Source of the DNA: Branchiostoma floridae
Lineage: Eukaryota > Chordata > Leptocardii > Amphioxiformes > Branchiostomatidae
Assembly: GCF_000003815.2 (NCBI RefSeq)
Contig: NC_049981.1
Span: 15,179,514-15,243,513 of the forward strand
Direction of reading: 5' to 3'
DNA: 64,000 bases
Below are positions 2,437 through 26,196 of the stretch, in pieces (position 1 is the first letter of the stretch; the number at the start of each line of letters is the position of its first letter). A program made the translations under genes and the position numbers. Below the pieces are notes generated by a model that worked only from the letters and a program-made list of their open reading frames with translations, did not search any database and was not told where the DNA came from.

Positions 2437-4747
2437 AACTTGGATAGGGGCTGATCCCGGGCAGCTTTATACGTCGTCATGCTAAACTATTAAGAGGCTT
2501 AAAGTAAATTCACAGCAATACATATACGGCATTTGCTCCGGAGTCTCATATGAATTGTGTACTACATTAAAGGTGAATTAAAAGCACGGTGACGAGGATA
2601 TGGTCTAGTGCTTTTTTATGCATAATTAAAAATGCATTTCGTATGCCTTCAAATTCCGTACAAAAAATATCACTATGTTAGCATGCCCTGAGTGCCAAAA
2701 GTGTCTTGTAAATTTTCCAGTCAGCTAGCCCCCTCCTCCACCACCACCACTACGTTGTTGTGCGAAGTTGTCTCCTCCCCCAACCCCCCAAGATCAAATA
2801 AAGCAACACATTTACCCTCGAGCTCTCGGCCTTCACAATGGAATGATCCAGTCTTACAATATGTTCACAACAACATGTATATGACATGTTATTACATTAG
2901 CGTACCTGATCGCAACCCCGGTATCATTGTGTCGCTATCTCATTAAGAACGCCATGCATAATTTATACACCTTTGTAACAACATACCTATCTAGTCTTGG
3001 TAGCAGACTTTGTGGATGGACTTGTTTTTGACTTATGGTGTCCTGTTTCCTGATTGCATACCAGTTTCTTTTCATTGTTCCAGGCTGGACATCTGTCAGA
3101 AACGTTATATACGATAAGAAAATTAAATACAGTGAGTCAGAAAACGGTACATGATAAGCAAAAATGGGCCTTACTACGAAGCCTTCGTGGAGGTTACGCC
3201 TACATGGGTGTGGCAAACATAACTGCTCACATGACAACATAGCTGCTCACATGGTAAACATCGAAAATCATCAGTACACAGAACTGTGTATATATTGCTT
3301 ATCATATACAGCCACTAAGAGTTGACTAGCAGGAAACTTGTACTTTAAAAAGGAGGTTTCTTCTCCGTCTTCATGCAAGAAACTTCGTGGAAGAGGAAAG
3401 TTGGGAGGCAGTGTCTTCTCCCCATTTAACTACTGTCGTCACGGGAGTTGAGGTATCTATCTCTTTTCACATTGTATCTGTGCGTGTGTGCAACAATGCA
3501 TTCACATCCGCAGCTTCTTCGGGTGTAACGTCGGTACTATTGCAGGGCAAATATAATGTCGTTTCCAGGTGAAAGTGTGAAATATATACATCAGCATATG
3601 ACGAATAGATATCAAAATTGCGGTTTAGAATGTAAGTAAAGTTTAATGATATATTTTTGCAAAACCTTACTGGTTTGTCGTAATGTTATTGACATTGATA
3701 GAAATAAAAACTGCAAATAGTGTGTAGATGAAATAGTTTTCTTTCGTAGCGACCGTTTGTGAGTGTTTCAACAGGTAATATATATGGTGTGGTTATCTGT
3801 TGTTAACATTTGCATGATTAGTCAACCGCCTTATTGCGTGACACGCCATGTACCAGTTATGTACGTTTATAAGTACAAGCTGAGTTACACCAGACTCATA
3901 CACAGGTGATATGGACCCCTTCTCTTATCCGAGTGGTGTCTTAACATGCTATGGTGTAGCTATCCTCAAACACGTTACCAAAACAGACCAGACTTTACGA
4001 CTTAATGAAAAACCTTGGAGCTGGTCATTGACGCCCTATGTCATTCCATAGAGTATGTAATGCCGCCTGAAAAACGAAATGACAGATGATTTATTGATGC
4101 TTTCTTGCAAAACCTTGTGACACGTACAAACATCAATGATGGGTGGGGGAGATCCACCGTTAGATGGTCAACGCTTACTAAGTACATTGTACAGTTAAAC
4201 CTGCATGCCCATAGTCACCACTTAACAGACTTCGTCACAATAGACAGGTAGCTGCTATGGACAGGATTTTGAGCGACATGGGTGAAATTTAAAGAGAAAG
4301 ATGATTTAAAAGCCAACCAAAAAGTGGCAACGGTACCGTATCTTAACGTTGAATTAGAATCTAAATAAAGGCAAAAACAAACAAACAAATGTAGGTAAAA
4401 ACCTAGAACGTAGTGCTACTGTTGGTTGCTGAGGTAACGTTAGTTCACCTTTATTCGCGGGGTAACCTATGTCCGTTGCACCTAAAGACAGCATATTTAG
4501 GGATATCAAGTTGACGCACAGTGTTTTTTAAAACTTTTTTTTTAATCCGTCGACTTGATATCCCGAAATACCCTGGTGTTAAATACAGCGGATAAAGGTT
4601 ACCCCGCGAATAAAGGTGAACTAGCGTTATAAAATATTTGACCGAACAGTATGCTATTCTCTTATCTCATTGCATTCATAGAGACATACAGTAGGAAGAA
4701 GGGAAAATCAACTTCCTATTTATGTATTGTAACATTCTCCTTTGCAG
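2437..4747. other. Spacer between the two RING genes; 5' non-coding part of the second
   Basis: No supported coding exon. AATAAA-like signals near 2795 could end the first RING transcript. A stretch near 3380-3450 ending in a donor-like GAG|GTATCT could be a non-coding exon of the second RING gene; this is weak. A foldback MITE occupies 4441-4622. The acceptor tctcctttgcag ends at 4747. Confidence 0.5.
4441..4622. mobile_element. Foldback MITE, TIR TAGTTCACCTTTATTCGCGG
   Basis: Left end TAGTTCACCTTTATTCGCGG; the right end is its exact reverse complement. Similarity between the arms continues inward (GGATATCAAGTTGACG against the complement of CGTCGACTTGATATCC), so nearly the whole 182 bp can fold on itself. 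No coding capacity. It ends about 125 bp before the exon of the second RING gene. Confidence 0.8.
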
Positions 4748-4798
4748 TTAGCTTCCTCAAGGTTGTTTGTCGACAAGAGCTCCTGCCAGCCCGCAACC

Positions 4799-5812
4799 AT
4801 GCCGAGGAGGGGAAGCCTGCGAGAAAGAAGATTCAACAGAAGCGCTAGGCGGCGCTTCCAACCGAAAACAGAATCTCTCTTTCAAACCTACCTTACCAAC
4901 ATGTTCGGCGAATGGCTGACGCTAAACAGCATCTTAGGCGGCACTGTGTTGTATTCTGCTGTGTACACGTGTATGACTATGAAGTCTGCGCCGCGCTCCA
5001 AAACCATAGATTGGCTTATGATCTTCATCATAAGTGTTCCGTACGGAGTTGCACTTTCTACCACATCGCTGATCGTATGGAACATGCTGATGGAAACGGT
5101 GGACTCTTTGTTGAACCTACTTCTCGTCTCGACGGACGTCCTACTGCCGAAAGTACCACACTTTTTACGAGGTGTTTTGAAACTGATGCTGGACTTTGTG
5201 CTTGCCTTGGTGATGATGATACACTGTGTTCTACAGTTGGTGTTGTTGTCGCGCCCCAATCAAAATGTCCATGAAGCTGATCTTCTCAATGCTGTCAATG
5301 ATATAGAAGACGATAGCGACGAGTCCGAAAGTCCTAGACGATTTCAGCCGAGCAGACGACGGAAAAATTCGTCGAAATACAACAAGTCGTCAAGAAAGCA
5401 GAAAGGAAAGTCGCTCGCGAAAGCAACCAAACAACATGACAAGGAAAGCTTCATGTCGAAAGAATCAGGGTCATTTTGGCACATTGGCGAACAAACAAGC
5501 GAGAATGAAATGCTCAGTTACCTGAAAAAACTCGAAGATTGTGCGTCTCGGGCAGAAAACGAGAAATTTGGAGAAAACATGGAAAACTTGAAGCTTAAAG
5601 CTGAAAACCAGCTGTACAAGAACAGACTGGATGTGGAAAGGGACCGCTTGCTGTGCACGGTCTGCCATGAAGAGGACAGGAAGCTGGCTATCGTTCCCTG
5701 TATGCACTTCTTTCTGTGCAAGGCATGCTGGGAGAAACTTAGTCTGATTGACAAAAAATGCCCCTACTGTGACCGCACAGCAGAAGATGTCACTGAGATT
5801 TTCGTCCCATAA
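4799..5812 (+). CDS. Multi-pass membrane RING-finger E3 ligase (337 aa), paralogue of the preceding gene
   Basis: Probable ubiquitin E3 ligase coded in a single exon after the acceptor ending at 4747; the first ATG in the exon is at 4799. The N-terminus is Arg-rich (about residues 1-20). Hydrophobic segments lie at roughly 41-60, 72-97 and 125-150, suggesting three membrane passes or reentrant helices. A polar, Ser/Lys-rich linker and a short Glu-rich helix follow. The C3HC4 RING starts at Cys286 (CTVC, PCMH, LCKAC, CPYC), and the protein ends in TEIFVP. RING and tail match the upstream gene closely while the membrane parts differ, so the two share an E3 module with divergent anchors. It converges tail-to-tail with the FN3-TIR gene on the other strand. 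Confidence 0.85.
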   Translation: MPRRGSLRERRFNRSARRRFQPKTESLFQTYLTNMFGEWLTLNSILGGTVLYSAVYTCMTMKSAPRSKTIDWLMIFIISVPYGVALSTTSLIVWNMLMETVDSLLNLLLVSTDVLLPKVPHFLRGVLKLMLDFVLALVMMIHCVLQLVLLSRPNQNVHEADLLNAVNDIEDDSDESESPRRFQPSRRRKNSSKYNKSSRKQKGKSLAKATKQHDKESFMSKESGSFWHIGEQTSENEMLSYLKKLEDCASRAENEKFGENMENLKLKAENQLYKNRLDVERDRLLCTVCHEEDRKLAIVPCMHFFLCKACWEKLSLIDKKCPYCDRTAEDVTEIFVP

Positions 5813-6742: not shown

Positions 6743-7799
6743 CTATCCAGTATGACTACCATCACTGTCTAGTGATTCACTTTGATTTGTCATCACAAAC
6801 TGTTGGAACCGAGCAGCCATGTCGGGGTTGCTTTCAAGAAAAGACTTGCATGCTAGACTTGCAATTGTTCTCTTCTCTCCTGTCTTCTTGTTTGTCATGA
6901 GAGTCACGACCTCCCATCCACTCTGTTCCATGTCTTGCGTCTGAAACAAAACAATTTTGTGTTTGCATGAGGTGAAATCGTTGTACTCACAGAAGTTGAA
7001 CGAAATATACTGTGCAATATATCAAAGATCAGCAGATCCGAGAAGAGTAAGTTGAAGAATAAAGAACCATAAACGCGTAACTCATTTCTTGCATGCTAGT
7101 CAACCAGATATTTTGTACCAATCGAAATATCTCTGAAAAACAAAATCTTGACATTTACATTAATATTTACTGCAGTGTTTTTATACTATGTAACAGGAAG
7201 TCACCTGCTTGTTCAGTCTCGTAACATCGTCGTCCCCTTGAGCCTGACCTGGCGTTCCTTCTCCATGTTTGTGGCTCTGAGGCACGTCTTCATTGTGGCG
7301 GTGTTCGCACGAGTGTTTACTATCTCCTCGCTCTGGAATATCGTCTGGGATGACAAGTTACCATTGGTAAAGACATGCATGGTAAATGTGTAAATAGCGC
7401 GTTGTGTATTACATATAATACATAAGCTGAGAGACGCTGGTCAAACTCTGCACCGTCACACACACACACACACGGACACACACACACACACACATACGTA
7501 CACACACATACACACACACACATGCACACATAAACGCACACAGACAGGAAGAGATGGAGAAAAAGATCTCCTTCTCAAATTCCATTGAATTACGTCCCAA
7601 CAGACAGAAAGCCATACAAAACGTATCACCACCCCGATACTTTGTTTAAACATTACTTTTTAGACAAGAAAGTTCATCATACCATCAACTGGCCCTTCCG
7701 TCGGATGTGTCGTGGTCACTGGAACCGTAGCCGCGCCTGGTACCCGTGCAGTTGGCCCTCTATATCTGTCTAATGTTCCAACAAAGGGCTCGGACCCTG
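6743..7799 (-). CDS. Exons 3-5 of the FN3-TIR gene: linker and uncharacterised C-terminus
   Basis: Exon 3 (7799 or 7796 to 7683) has a tandem acceptor and codes a Pro/Thr/Gly linker. Exon 4 (7344-7205) codes a His/Asp-rich hydrophilic stretch. Exon 5 (6940-6743) codes a compact segment with Trp, basic (NKKTGEKR) and helical (SFLESNPDMAARFQQFV) parts, ending in a Ser/Asp tail. None matches a domain I recognise. Confidence 0.7.
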
Positions 7800-10478
7800 C
7801 TGTCATTTTAGGACAAAATGTCATAAGTAAAGTATCCATCTTTTTCAAGAATATAGTTTGTATCACACAGGCTTTCTAGGTAGCAAATCTGACTTTGGTA
7901 AATTTACAAGTACATGTACGAACAATGCCGATCTAAGCTAGTACAAAAGCAACAAAGCACACTCCCTTGAATGATAAATAAAGTCACCTGTAGTTGTCGA
8001 CGTCCGCGGTTTCAACCAGGGGGAAACCTTGAACGCGATTTCTCTGGCAGCTTTCTTCACGTCGTCTGCATTTTCAGTGTAACCGACGCAAGTCGCCCGT
8101 TTTCCTTTCAGTAGGGACGATTTCTCTCCGACAAAGGAACTAAAGTTTTTAAAGTTATCATCATTTTCATCAAGCCAGATAGGATAGAGCGGGATGTTTT
8201 CTTTCAATGATAGCTCATACTCGAGTCGGGGCCAGTATTTATTCTTACCGAAGAAGTTTTTGCTTACAACGAGCACAAAGAGCTTTAATGTTTTGTTGGA
8301 TATCGCTGAGACGATTTCGTGGCGTATGGTATCTCCTGTGAAAATGGAGAATTTGTCGAAGAAAATGTCGCCCTCAGACAGGCCCTCTTCGAACAAAGCG
8401 GCCAGAAGTGGTTCAACGAACGCCTCCTTGTCCTCGCCGGCATGAGAGATGAATACGAGAGGACCTGCAAGAATGATGAACCCAATAAGCTAGTTCACAG
8501 TTTGAACTGCGCATGCATGAGTTCAAAGGTGAAGGCCCCTAACTTGTAAACAGTTCTTGTCTAGGTCATTTTTGAAATACAGTTAAGCATAAATTATCAA
8601 CAAACTTGTACTTCCACACTTCCCAATACATTAACGTAACGACTCCTAAGAAGAGGAAAGATTTTCAAAAAATCAAGGTAAAAGAAAACTTAGATCGCTC
8701 TTAGTGGGACGTGAAACATGCTCACCTTGTTGTTCCTCATACACGGGCCGTTTTTCAGCAAAAGCTGCCTCGCTCTTGCGTAGTCCTCTGATAGCTTGCA
8801 CAGAGATGACGTAAGTGACGAAAGGGTCTACGTCATGAAAGGTACAGGTGGTCCCCTTTGTTTCCAGCTTTTTGAGGATTCCTTTTGACGTCATACTCTC
8901 TGACTTCATTTCAATCAGATAGTGGTCAACCCTGCCGTTAGAGGGTGACCAAGAGACTTTGACGGTGGTTGGAGAGGGCTCTTCAATTTGAAGAGGCCCC
9001 GGTTTCTCAGGGAGTGTCCACGACTTACACTCAGACTCGGCTGTCATGACCACCTCACTAGATCTATCGATATATTGCACATATACTGTTAGAGTGTACT
9101 CGGTACCAGGCTGCAGATTCGTGAACGTATGTGCCGGACAATCCTGAATTTCATCTGAAGTTTTGATCACAGTTGATGGCATTGCGTGCTTAGGAGAAAT
9201 GCTTACGATGTAGTTCTTTACTCGAGCTTCAGGTACTTCATCGAATTTGTACCAAGTTTCCCCTGGGCTGCCTTCGCTCACACTCCAACTGAGATGAATG
9301 CTGTTGCTGGTGATGTCTTCATCATTAACCGTTATTTGTGGAGGATGTGGTTTGATTACCTGAGCATTTCTACATTCTTCGCTCGTCTTATCTCCGCTGA
9401 ATGTAGTAACGGTAACTACGTACCTGGCAAGGGGTACTAGATCGTCCTTTATCCACCGGGGTGCGACGGAACGCTGGCCAACTCTTGGTTGTACTTGTAT
9501 TCTTTGAATGGGAGCTGCCATAGCTCCCGGACAGAGAGAAAGCACATAGTGATCTTTTCGACCAGGCGCTTCGTCCCAGCCCACTGAGAGAATTCCAGGC
9601 TCATCTGAGCTAACTTTAATGTTCTCTACCTTAGCTGGGACAGTTTTTAAACTCAGTTGGACAGGCTCACTTTTGTAACCTTTGCAAGTGGTTTGTAAGG
9701 ATACATTGTACTCAGTACCTTGTTCCAGGCTTTTTAAGGTGTATGATGTTTCGTGTTCTTCGACTGGAATAGTCTGAACTGCAATGGTCTCGCCTTTTCG
9801 AACTGTCTGTAAAATGTACCCGTCTCTATCTCCAGTGGGGTGGTCCCATTGTACTGTTACTGACGCGTACGTCTTCGTTTCATACATGGTCTTGACGTTC
9901 GCTGGTCTGGCTACTTTTGTAGAAATATCAACTGTTCTCTCCTCACTCCATGCCCCGCTAGTACCACACTTGACCGTAACATGGTAGCACCGACCTGCAA
10001 CTAGCTTGTCAAAGGAATAAACTAACCTGCCATTTGCTTTTATCGTTTCTTCCTTTACAAGGTCTCCTCTACTTTTCCGATCTGTACATTCACGTAGAGA
10101 AACGTAGTAGACATCTTTAGGACCGTCTGGCTCTGGGCACTCAATTGTTATTGCGGATTCTGTCGAATTCAGTGTCTCAAAACATTTGAAGGGACAAATT
10201 TTCGTCCTGGCATTGACAAAAACGGGGTCGCTTTTAATTTTATCCCGTATGGCGACGATTTGGATTTTGTATTCAGTGTTTGGCTTTAAATCTTCAAGTT
10301 TGCACTGAATGAAATCTCCTGGTTCCGCCATGATTTCCTTGAATATGTCGTGGCCGCAGACGCTTACGTCATACTTAGTGGCAGACTCGTCCCCAGGCTC
10401 CCAGCTGACAACCAGGCTACTCTCGTTCACGACCATGACACCGGGATTGGTTACACGTCTGGGTGGATCGTTTTCCAT
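6743..10478 (-). CDS. Cytosolic FN3(x6)-TIR protein, predicted TIR NAD+ hydrolase (about 894 aa, 5 exons)
   Basis: Exons in transcript order: 10478-8726, 8464-7988, 7799-7683, 7344-7205, 6940-6743. Intron phases are 1, 1, 1, 0; all have GT-AG ends and the joined frame stays open. The ATG at 10478 is chosen because an in-frame stop lies just upstream with no AG acceptor between. Residues 1-584 form six FN3 domains. Residues about 586-740 form a TIR domain (FISHAGEDK strand A, GDTIRHEI BB-loop region, SKNFFGKNKYWPRLEYEL). W662 and E666 give WxxxE, the spacing of the catalytic Glu in SARM1 and bacterial NADase TIRs. There is no signal peptide or membrane helix. A Thr/Pro linker and an unrecognised C-terminal region follow. 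Seen: domains and motif. Inferred: NAD+ cleavage and a role in immune or cell-death signalling. Confidence 0.85.
7456..7545. repeat. CA/TG microsatellite
   Basis: Interrupted (CA)n run inside an intron of the FN3-TIR gene. It produces Val/Cys-rich spurious open frames on the minus strand. Confidence 0.95.
7988..8464 (-). CDS. Exon 2 of the FN3-TIR gene: complete TIR domain
   Basis: The acceptor ttcttgcag and the donor ACAG|GTGACT bound a 477 nt phase 1-1 exon holding the whole TIR domain, so it is a self-contained module that could be shuffled. The sequence style (FISHAGEDK, FFDKFSIFTGDTIR, WPRLEYEL) is closer to bacterial TIR_2-type domains than to the Toll/MyD88 type. Confidence 0.85.
8726..10478 (-). 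CDS. Exon 1 of the FN3-TIR gene: six FN3 domains
   Basis: One 1753 nt exon encodes six fibronectin type III repeats without interruption, each with the core Trp (for example VVSWEP, VTVQWDHP, VKVSWSPS) and the Leu-x-Pro-x-Thr-x-Tyr turn. The fifth repeat carries an insertion between its B and C strands. The donor CAACAAG|GTGAGC follows at 8725. One of its strands (VSISPKHA) closely matches a repeat in the neighbouring giant FN3 gene (VSVSPKHC). Confidence 0.85.
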
Positions 10479-10692
10479 TGCAATGGATTTCAATTTCCCC
10501 AGGAGTTATTTATCTAATTATATGTCCAAAAGTAAGTTTTCAATAGAATTTGCAAACCACTGTGGAATGAACAAAAGGGAAACTTTAATTGATCTGTCGT
10601 ATCAGTGTTAAATGATATCTTATATCGGTGTGCAGCACATACACATTCATACACACACAATAATACACGTTTTATAAATTTTCGGTGAGTAA

Positions 10693-10843
10693 CCTACGTA
10701 AATCCCCAATTACGTCAGGGAGAATTCCCACCTGTGACCTTTGAACTACTAGTATAGCGGAAACAATAGGCTATTCTAAGTCATTTAGAAGGAGCACGAT
10801 TCATGTACAACATATAGCAAACAGGCTAATGATATATGAAATC
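10693..10843. repeat. Copy 1 of a ~150 bp direct duplication with conserved TTACGTCA and TGACCTTTGAACT
   Basis: About 215 bp upstream of the FN3-TIR start codon. It shares, in order with copy 2, the CRE-like TTACGTCA (10710-10717), CCACCTGTGACC, the DR1-like TGACCTTTGAACT (10735-10747), CATTTAGAAGG and GGCTAATG. Confidence 0.8.
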
Positions 10844-10976: not shown

Positions 10977-12277
10977 CATTACTTGACTGGCGTCTACAGA
11001 CAACAAACGAAACAGTATACTTTCTATCATTGTAACAGTATATTACCTATTCATCTTCCTCAGACAAAGGCGAATTTGGCCTCAATTCAGTGGCGATCTT
11101 TGAACTTGTCACAGTATTACTTTCTTCGGCGGCTCAATGCCAAAATGAATACATGCAGTCTGTCCGCCAATCCACCTCCGGGAAAGTTTAGCCCAAGGGA
11201 GTTTTGCCGGCCCCTGGAAACCTCCTTCGAGCAATTAAAAGTCCCCGGAGCGCTAACTTTAGATCGGCGGTCAGACTACCTTGGGCCGCCGAATAAATCG
11301 GCTGGGTGCCCGTTCCGGTCTGGCAGCCAGGGTATCACAGTATTCACAGTATCTGTGCGAAAGGTCTCTTTTATGGGGGAAAAACTCACCCCCCCCCTCC
11401 CAGCAAATCAGACAGGTCACAAACACCGGGCTATGCTGGTCAAAGATTAACCAAACGTAAATCACCTGTATGACTCAAGCGGGACTTTCCATGCCCTTAT
11501 TTGTATTCCCTTTGAAACTAAGAACTGAGGACTGGTCTACTTTTGACGCGGGAGGTACTGATATTAATTTGCGAACTAACTAAAATTTTTCTAAAGTAAT
11601 ACCATCTGGCATACAGGCCAATTACAATGACCACGTTACATGTGCATATGGCGTATAAATATATAGGAAAATTTTCACTTTTAGGATAAGTAGATCAATG
11701 AAAGTTCAAAGTATTATTTTCATACCACACCTTTACATTATAGCGTGTGGTAGCAGCCGAACATTTAATTCTACTGTGCTATCATTTTCACATCATTCCA
11801 CTCAGAAATCGTCTATGTCTCCTTCAACGATCTAGGTAAGTTATTCATATTGAGATATATTTATATAATCATCAAACATTGGAACGTTACAGGTATTTGA
11901 TTGAGTCTGCAAGTTTTGTTGAGCGTTGTAAGTTTGATGCTGTGAATCAAAATCCAGGAGGACAAAATTCCCCCTCAAAATACTACTAATACCATAACTG
12001 ACATTTTGCACTTTTATATCTGTATCTATGGTATATAGCCGCGGCATAACCGCCCTTCGGCGCAAAACACCAGCTTCACAGGCGCTCTTCGCGGTAGCAG
12101 AAGGTCACATTACACTGAACGACTTGTCACACATAAACATAAAGTTACCGTCACACAAGTCTATATACCGTTATGTTATCTTACCTGTGGTAATCGTTCC
12201 CCGTCAACTCAAATGACACTGCATTTTGTGTTGTTACGTGCATAGCTGACTTCTTAATGCAGATTTTCCGAGCGAAA

Positions 12278-12430
12278 CCAACGTAAATCCCCTATTACGT
12301 CAGGGAGATTTTCCACCTGTGACCTTTGAACTATAACGAAAACATTAGGCTATTCCATTCCAGGTCATTTAGAAGGGTCATGATTCCTGTACAATATACA
12401 TATCACAAGCAAACGGGCTAATGTGAAATC
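12278..12430. repeat. Copy 2 of the ~150 bp direct duplication
   Basis: About 1.2 kb upstream of the giant FN3 gene start. TTACGTCA (12295-12302) and TGACCTTTGAACT (12320-12332) are retained exactly, although surrounding bases have diverged. Confidence 0.8.
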
Positions 12431-13627: not shown

Positions 13628-16600
13628 ATGTCAGCCACAGGTAAGGCTAACATTTTTGGCGACGACTAAGGGGCAAGCCTAGTAGATAGTATAGTATACT
13701 GTAGACGCATTTAAGTTCGCGGGGATTTAATTTCGCGGTAGCGGGAAAAGGGACTTTTCGCGGTAACACTGCAGTCTAATACCATGATAGAAAAATGTTC
13801 GCGGTGGTTTTAAGTTCGCGGTGAAGTGGTCACTGTGAAAACCGCGAACATTAATCCACCGCGAACATTTCTGCATTTACAGTATTTCCAGTTTGCAAGA
13901 ATTAAATGAATGGTGGGGATCCTTCTATATTCAGTGTATGTGCTGAAAATTAGTAAGAAACCAAACCTATGTATTGGGTACCTATCAGGCATCCTCACAC
14001 TCAGGGTTGACAATNNNNNNNNNNNNNNNNNNNNNNNNNNNNNNNNNNNNNNNNNNNNNNNNNNNNNNNNNNNNNNNNNNNNNNNNNNNNNNNNNNNNNN
14101 NNNNNNNNNNNNNNNNNNNNNNNNNNNNNNNNNNNNNNNNNNNNNNNNNNNNNNNNNNNNNNNNNNNNNNNNNNNNNNNNNNNNNNNNACTGTGCAGCCA
14201 GTATGGGAGGCGCTATTTTTGCCGCGATTGTCAACCCTGAAGTGTGAGGGTGCTATCAGGAGAAAGTGTCATATTTGCACACCACGTACGATGTAATTTT
14301 CGTCAATAAAACTTTTTTTTCTTTCTTGTTTGTCTTGGAACAGGAGATGCTGCTACTGAAGTGGCCGAACTCATCATACAGGAGGTCGCCCCCATGGTGG
14401 TAGACATACGCTGGGATCACATGCATTTAGATAACGTAAAGAGATACACGTTAAACTATACGCCTTTAGCAAATGAAAACGCTAAGAGGGAGGAGAAATC
14501 CATTCCTCCATCTAACACAGCTGCCACTGTCGACCAACTGGTGCCAGACACAGAGTACTTATTTGATCTCTCAGCCGTGGGGACCGATGATCAAGTTCAC
14601 CACGTAGCTTCAAAGAAGTTCACAACAGGTACCATGGGCAAATGAATGTTATTCATTTAAACATGAACTACAAGGAACTCTGTATTCAAATATTTAAATG
14701 TTTACGTCTGTATTGGCTTTTACAGTGAGCATTTCAAACTCACGGAGGTCACCGGACTTCAAGCTATAGCAGTTATAATCCAAAAGCTATATACGGCACG
14801 AAGTTAGCGAATATAGAATAAGAAGACCTTTGCATATTTATAGGCCCAGTCCAGGTCGCAGCTGATGTCGCTGATACGCCAGATACAAATTGTGGATCAA
14901 CAGAGAGCGATGTTGCAGAAAAGAGCTGTCCGGATGTGAAATCTATAGTGCAAGAGATTGAAGAGCGAGGCAGTCATTCGCAAGGTAGATCAATCCGTTG
15001 ATAACTGCTTTTGTCTTCTAAGCAAGCAAGATTTTATTTCCTTACTAGAACTGCTTTCGTCATTGTAGAAGTTGGCAGATGTGTTATTGTCCTATGCTAG
15101 TATGACTAGCAGGTGAGGATTGACCAAATCAAAATGAAGGCGTTGCTTGAAGTGTTGGTAGTGACTTACATTGCATTGCACTGCACAGGAAATGGCTCAT
15201 ATGGGACAAGAGAACAGAAAGGGGCAAGCAAAGACAAAGGGACAAGTCAAAAAATGAAAGGTATCTAATAATAGTATGAATCATTTGGTATTGTGTGTTT
15301 ACCAACCATACTTTGATTTTAAAGACAAATAAAACACCATACTGAAACTGCACTGTTCTTTTGATTATGCATTATTGCTGTTGCCATTGTTTCGGATACA
15401 TAACTTAATAGTTTATGACGTCTTTTTCTTTTTGTTATTTTTATCGAACCATAATCATTGCATGTTCCTTCAGAAAACGACGTCCCCGGGCCGTTGTGTC
15501 TTAAAGTGGTTGCGGTAGGAAAGACCAGGATTGACGTGTCTTGGCAAGCTGGTTACGTTCAGGCTGGTAGTCATTACAAGGTGACTTACTCCTGCGTCAA
15601 AAAAGGACTAGTTTACAATTCCGTGAGCACCAAGGAGAAGACTGTCACGCGTCCAGGGGCACATTGTACTATTTTAGACAGCCTGGATCCCAACAAGGAG
15701 TATACAGTGTGCTTGTATCGGGTGAAAGGAAGGACGCAAACGATTCTTTGCAAGCAAACAGTAACTACAGGCAAGTATTTCATGTCTTCCCTTGAAGTGA
15801 AATATCACGTGATCGACAATATTGTCAATATACAAATAGTTAAGTTCATCTTTAAAGATAATTTAGACTGCTGACAAAACAAAGGATGATGTCCATACAT
15901 ACATATCAGTACACACTATCATGCAGCTTTGAAATGTGATTTCATCTCCTCGACCAGGAATTAAAATAAAGTGCAGGTGATGTCGAACCAGTTTTGCTCA
16001 ATGCACTCAAACAGTTGAGCTACTTTTCACTGGACGAAGCAGAGAAAACGGGCACTGCGTACAGTATTCACAGGTTCATTGCTCCAAGGTACAACAGTTG
16101 ACCGCTGCTTAGCGTCCCATCCCTTTGTAACAATTTTTACAAAATTCATCCATCATCGTTTTTCTAGGGCACACTATCCCTTCCCCGGAAAGTCTGAGTG
16201 CCAGACCAAGAGACTGTACGACGTTGGAAGCATCTTGGACACGTCCGGCCCAGATACCGAAAGAACATGTGAATGCGTACCTGGTCTCATGCGTACCAGC
16301 GTCAAGTAAAGATCAGTGGGAAAGAGTAGGAAGCACAACTTATGTATTCAAGAATCTAGATGGTGGTACAAAACACTCTGTAAAAGTTAAATGCGTCTGC
16401 GTCGATGAATCAGTCAGCGAACCTGTAGACACAACGGCGTACACAAGTAAGTTCATGATCTTATCATAATGTTTTCTTATTTTTTGTGGAAAACTTTATT
16501 ACGAACAGAATGTAAAACATAAATCTTTTGCAAATATTCAATGCTAATCAATATCGACAAGCTTTGCCACTTACATTTTGTTGTGAAATATCCGTGAATT

Positions 16601-19600: not shown

Positions 19601-22600
19601 CCATCGCGTCGGCATTGGTATAATGTTTTTAATCATTTTAAACAATATCAATTAACGTTTTATTGATTTAATTCTTACACAAAAGGAGGTTTTGCAGATA
19701 TCATTATTTTCATAGAATGTTAGAGATAGCGAAGTTTAGTTTATCTATAGAAATAATTAGACTCTTGGTTTTCTACAATTATTACGAATTAAATACAATA
19801 ATATGATATCTTATTGTATATTTGTAAACGAACAATATACAACTTCAAATATCAAGAAGCTTGCGCAATTCAATTATATATATATATATATATTGATTTG
19901 CTTGTCTTTTTGTTTCGCCACACTCAGGTCCACTTCCAGTGAACCAATTTGAAGTTGTCCAGAAGACGACAGAAAGTGTAGAGTGTAAGTGGGTCCGGCC
20001 ATCCTGTAGTATTGATGGGTACCTCATAAGCATTACAGCTGTTGGAGACTCGTCAGAGCCGAAAGAGGTACCCTTGTCAGTTGATGATACTACCTACTTG
20101 TTTGAGTCCCTTGACCCCGGCCAGCAGCACATTATTTTGATACAGTCTGTACTGAAGGTCGGTGCAGATATTATTCCCAGTAGGCCTACACAGTGGGACG
20201 TGACCACGCCGCCCATGGTCCCAAGAAATGTGAGAGTTGAAAACGTCATGGATGAAAGCGTCTTGGTCAAATGGGACCAGCCAGTACGTGGAAAGGTAGA
20301 TCGTTATCGTGTCGATCTTTCATCCCAGAACCGCACTCTACTGTGCAAAGACACCCACGAGTTAACATACAAATTCAACCAGTTACAACCCTTGACAAAA
20401 TTCGACATAACCGTATATTCCATCAGGGGCCAAGATCTAAGTGAACCCACAGAATCTGTGTCATGTATCACCAAACCCAGCGCGGTAAAATCTTTACGAG
20501 TGGAAGCAGCGTCGTACGACGAACTGACTGTAGTTTGGGACCCATCGTGCGATCAGGCAGAGTACCAAGTGAAGATAGAGCCCGATGAAGGTAAAATGAC
20601 CGATAGAAACCCCGCTGACCCATCAGCATCGTTCTCTGGTCTTACATCTGGTAAGGCGTACACTGTAACCGTGGTCACAAAAGTCGGCGAGGATCTGAGT
20701 AAACCAGCCAGGAAGTGCTTTTGGACACAGGTAAAACCTGTCGATAAAATCTATATCAACGAGGACAATGTAACAACGAGCAGTATGTACGTAAGCTGGG
20801 ACAAACCGGAAGGGGTTGTAGAGGACTATCTTGTTAGCGTTTCCCCAAAACATTGTCGTGAACACACCGTTAATATCAAACCCGAACACGACCTCGGTCA
20901 CTCGTTTGAAAAGCTGCAAACGGGCGTTCAGTATAAAATCACTGTAAAAGCACGCAGTGGTAATAGTACGAGTGCCCCCAAAGACAAATTTCAGCATACA
21001 AAGGTGGAGAAGGTAAGAGAAGTGAGAATAGCAGCAGTTGATGAGTATTCAGTGACCATATCTTGGGTTTCACCGCAAGGGAATGTAGACAATTACTACT
21101 TGAAAGCAACTCGTCAAAATCAGGATGACACTGAAGGCATACAATCTGAGCTGAAAGCAGCAGAAATCTTCATGACACCAACAACAAGACATCCGGAAGA
21201 GAAAAAAGTGCCAGGGACAGTTACGAGACACGTGTTTCGCGAACTATGTCCTGGTGCCAGCTATACTGTCGCTGTGCAGGCAGAGAGTGGTCCATTCAAG
21301 AGTGCCCCTGTTTGCACTACGGTCAGCACCAAGCCAGCTGCCATCGGGAAAGTCGAAGTAGCAGGGGTGACCGAGAATAATATCGCATTGAAATGGGATA
21401 GAGCTGTGGGAGTAAACGATAGCTATGCTATTGATGTAAGGAAAGATGGGCGATTGGTCACAAAACAAATAGTTCCAGCATCAGACAAACTAGAGTACAC
21501 CATTGCTTCTTTACATCCAGGTAGGACATACGATATCGAAATCAGGACCATGAACGGGAGAACAGCTGGAAGTAGACCATTCGAATTATCCAAAAGCACA
21601 AAACCCTTACCTCCAACTCCAAGTGGTCTTTCTGTTAAATTTAATGAACATGTACAGCGAGGGTGCATCCTTGTGTCTTGGCCACCCCTTGGTCGTAACT
21701 CAGATGTTGACAAATATTGTGTTCAGATAAGTCCTACATGGGCCGTTGACACTGCGTCGAAAGAAGTCAGGGCATCGGACCCATTGGCAGTTCAGTTCCA
21801 GGACCCGATGCAGGGACCAAAATACAGTGTAACGGTTTTCTCAGTGAGCGGTGATCAGCAAAGTGAGCCAGTAACGAAAAAGTACCAGCTGCCTTTGAGC
21901 AAGCCTACCAACGTGAAAGCAACGCCAACAGATACAAGTATCAAAGTACAATGGGATTCGATTCGGCTTGGTGACAACAGGTACAGTTATCATCTTTCCG
22001 TTGTGCAAAGACACGAAAGTTCCAGTCAGGTAAATGTTGCAGAAGAAGGGGAAAGCTCCACAAAAGACGACAAGGCTCAAGGGGAAGCTGACATACAAAC
22101 ATCGAACGAAATCGTAGATTTAGATGCCTCGGAAGCCTCATCTGTCGTTCCCGGACAATTCGTTACCGTTCCCAACTCACGGAATCACCGTTTGTCTCAC
22201 ACATTTCACGGTCTCACTCCTGGAGTAGACTATGAGGTAAAAGTGAAAAGTTTGTCTCTGAAGGTTCCTCCAGAAGACGCCAGCGAATCTAAATCGGCGG
22301 CTATTGGACCCAGTGAGGCGGAAATCTCGCATTACGAAAGTCAACCTTGTTGCAAATTTCTGAGGACAAAGCCTACAGCCCCGGAAGATATCGTGATCAA
22401 CGAATGTGACGTCCGTCCAACAAGCATTCCAATTAGTTGGCCTGAAGCGAAAGGAAAAGTTGAGAAGTACGACGTGTCCATCTTTGACGCAAAGACAAAA
22501 CAAGGTATCCAAACCAAGTCTGTTGCAAAATCTGAAGGACAAGCTCTCTCACACACCTTTGAGAATCTTGTAGCCGGTGGACAATACATCGTTGAAGTCA

Positions 22601-25600
22601 TAAGTGTCAACAAGGGAGATAAGAGTGACCCTAAGCGAATGACACAGCAAACCCCACCTCTACCCCCAACTAACCTAAAGGTAGATTGTGATAAACGTTA
22701 TAAAACCATCAGAATAACATGGAAAGCACCGCAAGGGGAAAGGGATGTATACCTTATCCAAGCAGAACCACACACAGACGATGACATGCCCATCAAAGTT
22801 GAAAAGAACAAAACGTCGTGTACAATACCAAATGCCGTACCAGGAGAAAAGTACACAATAGCTGTCTGGACAAGAAGAGGGGACCTTTCCAGTGAAAGGT
22901 CGACTGAGCCGTTCCAGGTACCAGTAAGTCAGGCAAAGAACGTTCAAACAAAGGATGTGGACGACAAGACGATTAAAGTTACTTGGGAAGAATCTAAAGG
23001 AAAAAAGACTGGTTATCATGTTTGCATTGATCCTAAAGATGGAGCAAACAAAGAACAGGAAAATAAAACTGGAGACCTGACTCATTGCTTCACAGAACTA
23101 GTACCTGGTAGACTGTACACTATAAGTGTCATCACACTGTGTGAAGAAGTGGAAAGTGAACCAGTGAAGATAACACAACGAACCGAAATCAGTCCGGTCG
23201 CTGAAATCACAACCGACGGTGGGGTCACAGAAACGTCTATAAAACTAAGGTGGAGTCAACCAGAAGGAGACCAAGATAAATACCGCGTTGCCATTTACAG
23301 GAGTTCCGTGGAAGGCCATCGTGACAAGATGGTAGGTAATCCTCACGAATTCTCATCATCAAGCAGTGATCCGGAATATACATTTCACGGCCTCCGTCCT
23401 GGTCGTTTATATATCCTTACAGTTGAAAGTGGATGTGGGGGTGACTGGAGCAAAGAAAAAGAAGAACCTCAGAGAACAACGGTTACTCCAGTAAGCAATC
23501 TTCAAGTGTCGAACGTCACTTGCGTTTCGTTCAAACTATCATGGGTACATGCAGTGGGAGACAAAGATGGCTACCACGTACGAGTTACACCAAAGCTACA
23601 AGAAGAACATAAGGATGCTTGGAAAATTATTCCTGTCCAAGAAGACAAAAATGAGTACGATCTTGAAGAGCTGACACCTGGGAGAGAATATACAGTGGAC
23701 GTTGTAACAGTCAGCGGGGACCAGGAGAGTGTCCCTGTTTCTCGTACACGACGGACTGTGGTAGCTCCAGTGACTGAACTACGCGCTAGGACCAGTAAGG
23801 AAGGCCAGCTTGAGCTCGAATGGACTGAAGCAGAAGGCGATAAAGACAAATACGTCTGCAAAATTGTCAGTCATGGCCAATGCCCAAGTCAATACCCAAG
23901 TCAGTCAATCACAAAGGACAAGAACGAATGGGTGCTGACCGGGTTGGTTCCTGGTGAAATGTATGAAATAAGGCTGATCACAGTAAGTGGTGGTGTAAAA
24001 AGTGACAAGAAACCTAATTGCTGCCAGAGGGTCATGCCATGTGCACCGAAAATACATGCTAAGTCAACATCAACCCTAGATACGTTGACAGTAACTTGGG
24101 AAGATTCGGTGAAGGACTGTGTCAAGGAGTGCTACGAAGTAAAACTTCATCCAGCTAGAGATCCTCAAGCTCTGATAACTGATCGTACTGACAGAAACGA
24201 TTACCAGTTCACAGGTTTACTTCCGGGAACAGAGTATCAGGTGTCAGTGTGTTCAGTGAGTGCAGAATTGCGCAGCAAAGAAGACCTTCAGATTGTCACA
24301 ACAGAGGTTTCCGAACCGGTTATAAGGAACATAAAAGCTGAAGAGAACAAAATTGAAGTAGAACTTGATGAAACAAAGGGAAACGTAGAGAAGTACATAT
24401 GGACGAGACAAGAAAGTGACAACAACTCACCGGGACAGGAAATCAGCGTGAATGTCGGTGACGTGTTGTCGAGTAACACTGATGTTGTCACTCCTTTACA
24501 AAAGAGTGTCCAGAGAAGGGGGCCTTCCCACAATAATTTACCTGATAAAGATGTAGAGGCCAATGATGCATGTGGCAATAACAAGTTATGCCCTCGTAAT
24601 GTTATGTTCCCAAAGCTAAAACCTTGCAAGCAATATTCCATTACCGTCCGCGCAGAAAGCGCTGGCAAGAAGAGTGATCATGTGCACATTTACCAGCACA
24701 CTCGGCCTCACCGTCCTCGGAAACCCGAATGTGGAAACGAAGGAATGAACAATTTCTCCGTCTTCTGGAGTCCGCCACTAACTGAGGAAGAACGAGGTAG
24801 AATAGTTGGCTACAGGGTGAAATTCAGAAGATTAGCTAACAACCTGTCTACCATTGAGGAAGTTGGTGAAGACGACTGGAAGTGGCTGGATCCAGGGAAC
24901 ACGACTCAACAAAAGATTGACGAAACCAACGCAGACAACACTGACTACGAGATAGGCATAGTGTCTGTCGCCGAAATCGAGTCGCATAAACCCGAAGATG
25001 AAGGAAGAAAAATCAAGATTGAGAGTGAGCCGGTGAGATTCCGGTATCGTACGATGTCATATGGCAAGAAGTTTCTACAGAATGCAGTCCTCATCTTAAT
25101 TACTGTGTTCTTCATGATTGCAGTGATTATTGCAGCGGTTTTGCTCGCTGGAGTGTACATAGATAAGTGTGGAAACGTGGATCCTGGTCGTGACTTATCG
25201 TTTAACTTTAAAAACAATGTAACATCAGCACCTGTGACGCGGCAACCTCCAACCACCAACTGCTTGTTTGAAAAGGCAGGCACAGAATTCTGGATCTTCA
25301 TCCTCTCTCTTGTAGTGCTTACAATAGATGCCGTAGTTTTGATTATCTGGTATCAGGTTGTGAGGAAGCGTTTTGCGAGAGGACGAATGCAGCTTCTAGA
25401 TGACGAGACCATAGATGAAGAAGAGGAAGAAACATCTTTCGTTCAGACGGTCCTGCAAAGAACTAGTAGATTGTTAGCATACTTACGTAACATGTGCGCT
25501 GAAACAAACAATAGCACAGACGAGCATACACGTACAGAGGAAATCCCATCGGACAGGCGTCCTAGTGAAAGCACCACAGATAGTGAATCAGACATTTGGG

Positions 25601-26196
25601 ACGAGTCTCCAATACCCTCTTCTTTCAAAAGAAAAAGAGTTACAACATTGCATTCTAACGACGAAGCAAATACAGGCGAAGGTACATCTCCAAAGGCATT
25701 ACATTTTAGTGAAGAATCGGATGGCATCTCAACAGATGGTGTACAAAATGACCAGGAACTTTTTGCTCCACAAAACGACATTGTCAATGATTCACTGGGG
25801 CAAAACCCAACTGCCGCTAGGGAGTCGCCATTTGAATATTCAAACATTGTTACGGTTGCAACTGTCGAAGAGGATGAGGATTGGGAGGACGATTATATGT
25901 CCCCACTAACTCATAGAGTTACAGTCATGGATAGTGAACCATCAGGCGAGAGTGCGTTACAAGAAGATACTGACCCTGTCACAAGTTTTTCATTCCTACG
26001 TCGTATCGGCAAGAAATGGCAAAATTTCTTCAAGGCCAGACCGTCAATGCAAGCGGAAAATGAAAGCGAAGACGAGAATACCAATGGCGGTACTTTTGGT
26101 GAAGACGATGAGATTGAAAACATAGAAGAATCTTGTAGTGTGCAGGTCGACGAAAGGACCCCCTTGCTGCAAACACCCGACCAATCAAAGAAATAG
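13628..26196 (+). CDS. Giant cytosolic-facing FN3(x23) membrane-hairpin protein (about 2737 aa, 11 exons)
   Basis: Exons: 13628-13640, 14344-14628, 14844-14984, 15189-15260, 15474-15770, 16168-16446, 16648-16914, 17246-17542, 18467-18550, 19340-19549, 19928-26196. Every intron is phase 1 and the joined length is divisible by three. The start (MSAT, ATG at 13628) is inferred from phase. Six FN3 domains come from the small exons (two exons give linkers, one FN3 is split) and 17 from the last. Two hydrophobic helices, about 2367-2393 and 2436-2460, flank a loop with two Cys and an NNVTS glycosylation site. Basic residues lie outside both helices (RFRYR; RKRFARGR), so both ends should be cytosolic. 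The acidic tail ends with ERTPLL, a [DE]xxxL[LI] endolysosomal signal. No signal peptide is seen. Family name unknown; scaffold or receptor role inferred. The 18550/19340 join uses a weak acceptor. Confidence 0.82.
13697..13884. mobile_element. TTCGCGG-rich MITE in intron 1 of the giant FN3 gene
   Basis: Ends are TACTGTAGACGCA and its inverted partner TGCATTTACAGTA. The interior contains several copies of TTCGCGG/CCGCGAA in both orientations. A diverged relative lies at 42110-42270. Confidence 0.75.
13988..14252. mobile_element. Inverted-repeat element interrupted by the assembly gap
   Basis: The left flank of the gap (CATCCTCACACTCAGGGTTG) is the reverse complement, with one indel and few changes, of the right flank (CAACCCTGAAGTGTGAGGGTG). 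The unread bases therefore probably lie inside a foldback MITE. Confidence 0.65.
14015..14188. other. Assembly gap (174 N)
   Basis: Run of undetermined bases in intron 1 of the giant FN3 gene. An additional small exon here cannot be excluded. Confidence 1.
15771..16167 (+). other. Putative GC-AG intron in the giant FN3 gene
   Basis: The FN3 exon ends ACTACAG and continues GCAAGT, the classic GC donor, with no usable GT donor in the required phase before the stop. The acceptor tttttctag at 16167 restores phase 1. Confidence 0.7.
18600..19212. mobile_element. Nested inverted-repeat elements in intron 9 of the giant FN3 gene
   Basis: The outer arms share TTTGAAGTGCACATGTGCAG (left) and the inverse of TGCGCATGTGCACTTGAAAC (right). 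Nested inside is 18696-19125 with ends TAGGGGTGGGTACCGGTAC and an inverted partner, and repeated AGGTCC/GGACCT motifs. The CAGGGGTGGG-like ends suggest a hAT-type non-autonomous element. A partial outer relative lies at about 16943-17070. Confidence 0.6.
19928..26196 (+). CDS. Last exon of the giant FN3 gene: 17 FN3 domains, two membrane helices, acidic tail
   Basis: A 6269 nt exon entered in phase 1 after cacactcag. It encodes 17 consecutive FN3 repeats (motifs such as SVSGDQQSEP and LTPGREYTVDVV). Repeats 8 and 16 of this exon carry long acidic or polar insertions. The two-helix hairpin and a ~277-residue cytosolic tail follow. Minus-strand frames across it are shadows of the coding frame. 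Confidence 0.9.

Follow-up and report, generated by a model that had tools for sequence, protein, structure and literature searches.

A bacterial-type TIR domain joined to an array of FN3 domains in Branchiostoma floridae: a candidate cytosolic receptor and its TIR exon family

Introduction

A window of 64,000 nucleotides from the lancelet Branchiostoma floridae (assembly GCF_000003815.2, contig NC_049981.1, positions 15,179,514 to 15,243,513) carries on its minus strand a gene of five coding exons, here called the FN3-TIR gene, whose predicted product of 893 residues places six FN3 domains in front of a single TIR domain. An earlier reading of the same letters (the original prediction) had proposed that this was a cytosolic fusion and a possible new animal NAD+ hydrolase. 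By similarity the TIR is of a type found in bacteria, and it is one of a large family of TIR exons within the same genome. On balance the gene probably encodes a cytosolic, and probably immune, receptor with an FN3 array, the TIR domains of which would cut NAD+ when clustered.

In the mechanism proposed the six FN3 domains would serve as a binding or assembly array and the AbTir-type TIR as the effector, with a tail that has no known domain following it. The binding of something by the FN3 array or the tail, or self-association, would bring the TIRs together, the clustered TIRs would then form an active site, and E666 would help to cleave NAD+ into nicotinamide and either ADP-ribose or a cyclic isomer, the outcome being depletion of NAD+ or a second messenger. 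Prokaryotic TIRs that have been examined for NADase activity require the catalytic Glu and become more active with crowding (PMC7282519). As to its origin, the gene may have arisen when a TIR exon of the large family came to sit behind an FN3 exon. What the sequence itself shows is the anatomy of the gene, the similarity-based type of its TIR and the exon family with its common phase-1 acceptor, whereas the cytosolic location, the clustering, the catalysis with its product and the part in immunity are inferred.

The type of the TIR domain

The window TIR was compared alone with the PDB, matches being counted at E <= 1, and 11 were obtained. Seven are TIRs of the BtpA, PdTIR and AbTir group (2.6e-14 to 8.5e-8), presumably all bacterial and with three of them belonging to one Brucella protein, and the other four are chance matches to a glucanase (E >= 0.63); SARM1, Toll, MyD88 and plant TIRs gave no match up to that limit. 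A profile made from this genome alone, comprising 16 TIRs (the window TIR and 15 of its 49 relatives), found the same seven TIRs at 2.3e-20 to 4.5e-16, followed by a TPR-repeat protein (2.6e-9), plant Roq1 (3.9e-5) and the Cat1 and TIR-APAZ (SPARTA) TIRs (E 0.001-0.07), with MyD88 (0.011), Hydra TRR-2 (0.017), TLR1 (0.17) and SARM1 (0.43) at the weak end. Blastp within the set of rows used for the tree gave a similar order, the window TIR being 30-51% identical to relatives from its own genome and 28-36% identical to bacterial or prophage rows (best E 2e-15), with E no better than 2e-4 for the Toll-type rows and no match to SARM1 up to E 10. The window TIR is thus, as judged by similarity, of the bacterial AbTir/PdTIR type, a bacterial style having been predicted, with MyD88, TLR1 and SARM1 far weaker matches.

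A pattern in one loop gives the same division. The pattern D-x-x-[STEQ]-[ILMV]-x-x-G, which was chosen after the alignment had been viewed and was sought in residues 20-60 of all rows, is present in the window TIR, in PDB 3h16 (which we take to be PdTIR), in 31 of 35 paralogue rows (those without it are L052 and L054-L056) and in 24 of the 25 bacterial or prophage rows, and in 0 of the 10 SARM1, TLR, MyD88 and Toll-type rows. In the rows compared it does separate the classes of TIR, unlike the WxxxE motif. The latter reads W662-P-R-L-E666 in the window TIR, at the position originally claimed, and its Glu aligns with the catalytic Glu of AbTir-type TIRs, yet it is common to other classes and hence not diagnostic: it also occurs in all six Toll-type TIRs of the same genome, in TLR1, TLR2 and SARM1 and in 25 of 25 bacterial or prophage rows, with MyD88 lacking it. 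A survey likewise reports the Glu in more than 70% of all TIRs and in more than 90% of the TLR1/2/6/10 subgroup (PMC7075850). The motif had been offered as a sign of NADase activity, and as such it is not supported; its presence in Toll-type TIRs rules it out as proof.

Some other measures were set aside. A match to TIR_2 does not prove a bacterial type, as TLR2 (53.4 bits) and MyD88 (52.9) also exceed the cut-off and TIR_2 matches almost all subclades according to a 2026 atlas of TIRs (PMC13142454). The PDB ranking by a mixed profile, A2, was replaced by that of the genome-own profile, since A2 includes 25 bacterial or prophage rows. Matches by fold have too little spread to act as a test of class (AbTir 14.8, RUN1 14.7, MyD88 13.1, SARM1 12.2).

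A tree of 72 rows was made, omitting L007, L008, L035, L053 and the self copy L010. The window TIR is nested among TIRs of its own genome, in a clade of 29 rows (99/94) and one of 35 rows (96/94), and a branch with support of 100/97 parts TLR1, TLR2, MyD88 and L001-L006, six TIRs of the same genome labelled Toll-type by appearance, from the family rows together with the bacterial rows and SARM1, the last being on a long branch with no firm position. Other results weigh against the reading adopted here: approximately unbiased (AU) tests reject neither a grouping of the window TIR with the Toll-type rows (p 0.375) nor one with SARM1 (p 0.321), the grouping with the bacterial rows is not rejected either (p 0.146), and the 36 family rows as one group have a support of only 73/76. 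The phylogeny with bacterial rows, put forward originally as a check, sets the Toll-type TIRs apart and leaves all three alternatives standing; the tree does not settle the deep branching order, and the class is assigned on similarity. A special kinship with SARM1, at which the original prediction had hinted, is not borne out by the matches given above, although a sister relationship is among the trees that were not rejected.

A family of TIR exons in the genome

A search of the genome (513,431,437 bases in 431 contigs) found at least 49 further matches to the window TIR, with 32 at 43-51% identity, 2 at 36-40% and 15 at 29-35%, these 15 forming a cluster on one contig (C3). A phase-1 AG lies at the codon of the window TIR-exon acceptor in 34 of 35 readable rows, with L052 differing and L035 not assessable. 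With identities near 50%, the phase-1 acceptor and the clades described above in common, the window TIR belongs to a large family of TIR exons of the same genome and is not a lone oddity. Separately, a scan of a collection of genome contigs gave 1 locus and a first scan of viral contigs gave 0.

The surroundings of 37 of the 49 family TIRs were taken, 20 with flanks of 1.5 kb and 17 with approximately 7 kb upstream and 2.5 kb downstream, and they contain no tblastn match to the FN3 exon or the tail at E <= 0.01, although a single diverged FN3 domain could escape such a search. Pfam scans were made of thirty frames that neighbour the TIR exons of 20 paralogues on the same strand; these frames were chosen by length and by eye, so that no frequency for the family can be drawn from them. 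Nineteen of them, at 17 of the 20 paralogues, are above the cut-off, and counted per paralogue they comprise CARD (9), NACHT (3), Death (2), NB-ARC (1), TRADD-like_N (1) and DEAD/ResIII (1), with a single GRAM match approximately 5 kb upstream of a TIR at which Death was matched as well (L032/L041). Their position and strand suggest that these frames and the TIR exons are parts of the same genes. The CARD, Death, NACHT and NB-ARC neighbours are found at some paralogues only, so they do not define the family. At L025 (287-547, minus strand) the family TIR exon adjoins the DEAD/ResIII helicase frame, possibly a TIR-helicase receptor of the RIG-I type. The 15 diverged TIR exons of contig C3 lie at approximately 31.9-33.3 Mb (the L054-L056 region), and as the three that were read lack both W and E this cluster is likely to be a non-catalytic branch.

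Enzyme or scaffold

The TIR might alternatively be a pseudoenzyme acting as a scaffold, recruiting TIR or death-fold proteins in the way that MyD88 does, with E666 kept for structure. This is unlikely, but it has to be taken seriously: the Glu is frequent in TIRs for which no NADase activity is known, both in the survey (PMC7075850) and in the WxxxE counts for this genome, paralogues adjoin CARD or Death frames, which are domains that signal by assembly, and three paralogues have neither W nor E. Against it, the closest sequences are bacterial TIRs, among them an NAD hydrolase of solved structure, and W and E are retained in 32 of 36 paralogue rows, the remainder being L035, the frame of which is broken and could not be read, and L054-L056. 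A TIR that would cut NAD+ is the reading preferred here.

Cellular location

The receptors of the Toll and IL-1R kind have a signal peptide and a membrane helix, and neither feature is apparent in the FN3-TIR product. Hydropathy finds no membrane helix in the 893 residues, the highest 19-residue value being 1.26, which bears out the absence of a helix that had been claimed, and the N-terminus, MENDPPRRVTNPG, is unlike a signal peptide when judged by eye. The stretch from the in-frame stop to the ATG of exon 1 contains no AG (the letters being read by eye) and hence offers no place at which an earlier coding exon could be spliced on, and together with the absence of a helix by hydropathy this makes it likely that the product is cytosolic.

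It is improbable, though conceivable, that the product is extracellular or bound to a membrane by means of a hidden 5' exon spliced to an acceptor within exon 1. Arrays of FN3 domains are mostly extracellular, the neighbouring FN3 gene encodes a strongly hydrophobic helix, and there is an AG at position 19 of exon 1. The FN3 repeats of a ctenophore TIR_2 gene are moreover described by its authors as extracellular (PMC11797021). Besides the lack of an AG before the ATG, what speaks against a hidden exon is that the pyrimidine tracts at the ten AGs within the first 150 nt of exon 1 (0.35-0.55) are poorer than those of the four acceptors that are used (0.55-0.65), although the difference is modest. 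The number of N-glycosylation sites is at the level of shuffled sequences (3 compared to 2.4 +/- 1.4), which is also against it, although this test is weak as the neighbouring FN3 gene is likewise at its shuffled level.

Structure of the gene

The exons of the FN3-TIR gene are given in Table 1, their joins being predicted from the sequence; all introns are GT..AG, with phases 1, 1, 1 and 0.

Table 1. Predicted coding exons and first intron of the FN3-TIR gene, with positions in the window.
Feature	Position	Strand	Description
Coding exon 1	8726..10478	-	1753 nt; ATG and six FN3 domains; residues 1-584 and first base of codon 585
Intron 1	8465..8725	-	261 nt; GT..AG; phase 1
Coding exon 2	7988..8464	-	477 nt; TIR domain, residues 585-743; phase 1 in and out; contains W662 and E666
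Coding exon 3	7683..7796	-	start of C-terminal tail; in-phase GT-AG exon
Coding exon 4	7205..7344	-	tail; in-phase GT-AG exon
Coding exon 5	6743..6940	-	end of tail and stop codon; in-phase acceptor

Six stretches of exon 1 match Pfam fn3 (179 bits summed), and exon 2 matches both TIR_2 (44.7 bits, cut-off 28) and TIR (21.6 bits, cut-off 21.3), so the joining of six FN3 domains in phase to a TIR stands as first described. The extent of the gene does so in part, exons 1 and 2 being as noted earlier and exons 3 to 5 having been overlooked. The FN3 exon lies in a stretch of 610 codons free of stops, which would arise by chance with a probability of approximately 6e-17 given the window's base composition, and the predicted model of the TIR has a pLDDT (predicted local distance difference test) of 84.9 and a pTM (predicted template modelling score) of 0.82. 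A Pfam scan of the C-terminal tail, of 150 residues, gave nothing above the cut-off (the best being HTH_39, 16.6 against 21.3). SARM1 has the architecture ARM-SAM-SAM-TIR, and neither ARM nor SAM domains were found in the Pfam scans of exon 1 and of the tail. None of the partners CARD, Death, NACHT and NB-ARC is present in the gene, for which Pfam gave FN3, TIR and a tail free of matches above the cut-off, and what scans with PADLOC and NCBIfam gave was confined to models of bacterial defence and a single unrelated one.

That the locus is decaying or misassembled, with the FN3 and TIR exons not forming one working protein, is very improbable. In its favour are the over-representation of TIR (PF13676) among the dispensable genes of two lancelets (PMC12373286) and the broken state of one paralogue, L035. 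Against it, each of the five exons is open and canonical and keeps the phase, the FN3 frame runs for 610 codons without a stop, and W and E are intact.

Neighbouring genes

A large FN3 gene lies on the plus strand, divergent to the FN3-TIR gene, with a probable start near 14310 and an exon at 19897-26193 that has 2099 codons and 17 fn3 stretches. It encodes a strongly hydrophobic helix near residue 1731, a second helix that was seen by eye, and an acidic tail. Part of this gene aligns with exon 1 of the FN3-TIR gene (27.9% identity, E 6e-39, two-sequence blastp), and because it both aligns in this way and packs many FN3 domains into one exon, the FN3 exon of the FN3-TIR gene may be locally derived.

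Upstream of the start of the FN3-TIR gene are two pairs of direct repeats, each with a spacing of approximately 1585 nt, one at 10678-10748 and 12263-12333 (71 nt, 89% identical) and the other at 10773-10829 and 12357-12413 (57 nt, 75% identical). They represent a duplicated stretch, which may be regulatory or the remnant of a mobile element. Elsewhere in the window two RING-finger frames that match zf-C3HC4_3 lie on the plus strand (1516-2433 and 4733-5809), with hydrophobic stretches near the N-terminus when viewed by eye.

Comparison with known systems

The closest TIRs in the PDB, whether the window TIR is used alone or the genome-own profile, are AbTir (7uxu, 8g83), PdTIR and BtpA. The W and E of AbTir and PdTIR align with those of the window TIR and the loop pattern is shared with 3h16, but the window TIR is only 26-36% identical to them. 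Relatives on plasmids number 123 records, and among the 25 listed 18 are annotated as DUF1883-domain proteins, in contrast to the FN3 domains of the window gene. The TIR exon family of the same genome differs in having CARD, Death, NACHT, NB-ARC, TRADD-like and helicase neighbours.

SARM1 resembles the window TIR as an animal TIR with WxxxE that is not a Toll receptor, yet it differs in its weak similarity (E 0.43) and in having no loop pattern. TirC of Dictyostelium is also a bacterial-type TIR in a eukaryote and is a potent NADase, but it is related to TIR-STING, and in the part of that paper's text drawn on here 'fn3' and 'fibronectin' occur 0 times (PMC13142454). The same atlas describes uncharacterised eukaryotic clades and a transfer from bacteria to amoebae that gave an active NADase, and the window TIR family may already be among its sequences (PMC13142454). 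In sea anemones TIR_2 is found in new architectures, for which horizontal transfer has been suggested (PMC5094078).

The original prediction knew of no named animal protein with this architecture, but a pairing of TIR_2 with FN3 repeats in an animal is already in print as 'gene 3' of the ctenophore Mnemiopsis leidyi, which is induced by Vibrio and is likened to the FN3-TIR gene by its pairing of domains alone (PMC11797021). That paper was the only one found with FN3 and TIR_2 together in the parts of the literature covered, and an earlier listing of the present gene in amphioxus is possible: 20 of 28 TIR combinations in amphioxus are specific to it, with the partner domains tabulated in the supplement (PMC2575513). 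The kind is thus already known, and the novelty lies in the present gene, which puts a bacterial-type TIR under an array of FN3 domains, and in its membership of the exon family.

Amongst animal TIRs only SARM1 had known NADase activity according to a survey of 2020 (PMC7075850). It is possible, although here we are tentative and would put it at somewhat less than an even chance, that the family forms, separately from SARM1, a second lineage of NADases among animal TIRs. This lineage would be of AbTir type, and the catalytic W and E are retained in no fewer than 33 of its members, the window gene plus 32 of the 36 rows read. Its TIR exon would be interchangeable between immune receptors inside the cell, and in the present gene it would be placed under an FN3 array to make an FN3-sensing, cytosolic, NAD+-cutting receptor. 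The FN3-TIR gene is a good test piece for this, as it is small, with one TIR and no NTPase domain found. If true, a chordate would have dozens of bacterial-type TIRs that keep W and E, many of them beside domains of the NLR type, and an immunity based on TIR enzymes, as is found in plants and bacteria, would be directly testable in an animal.
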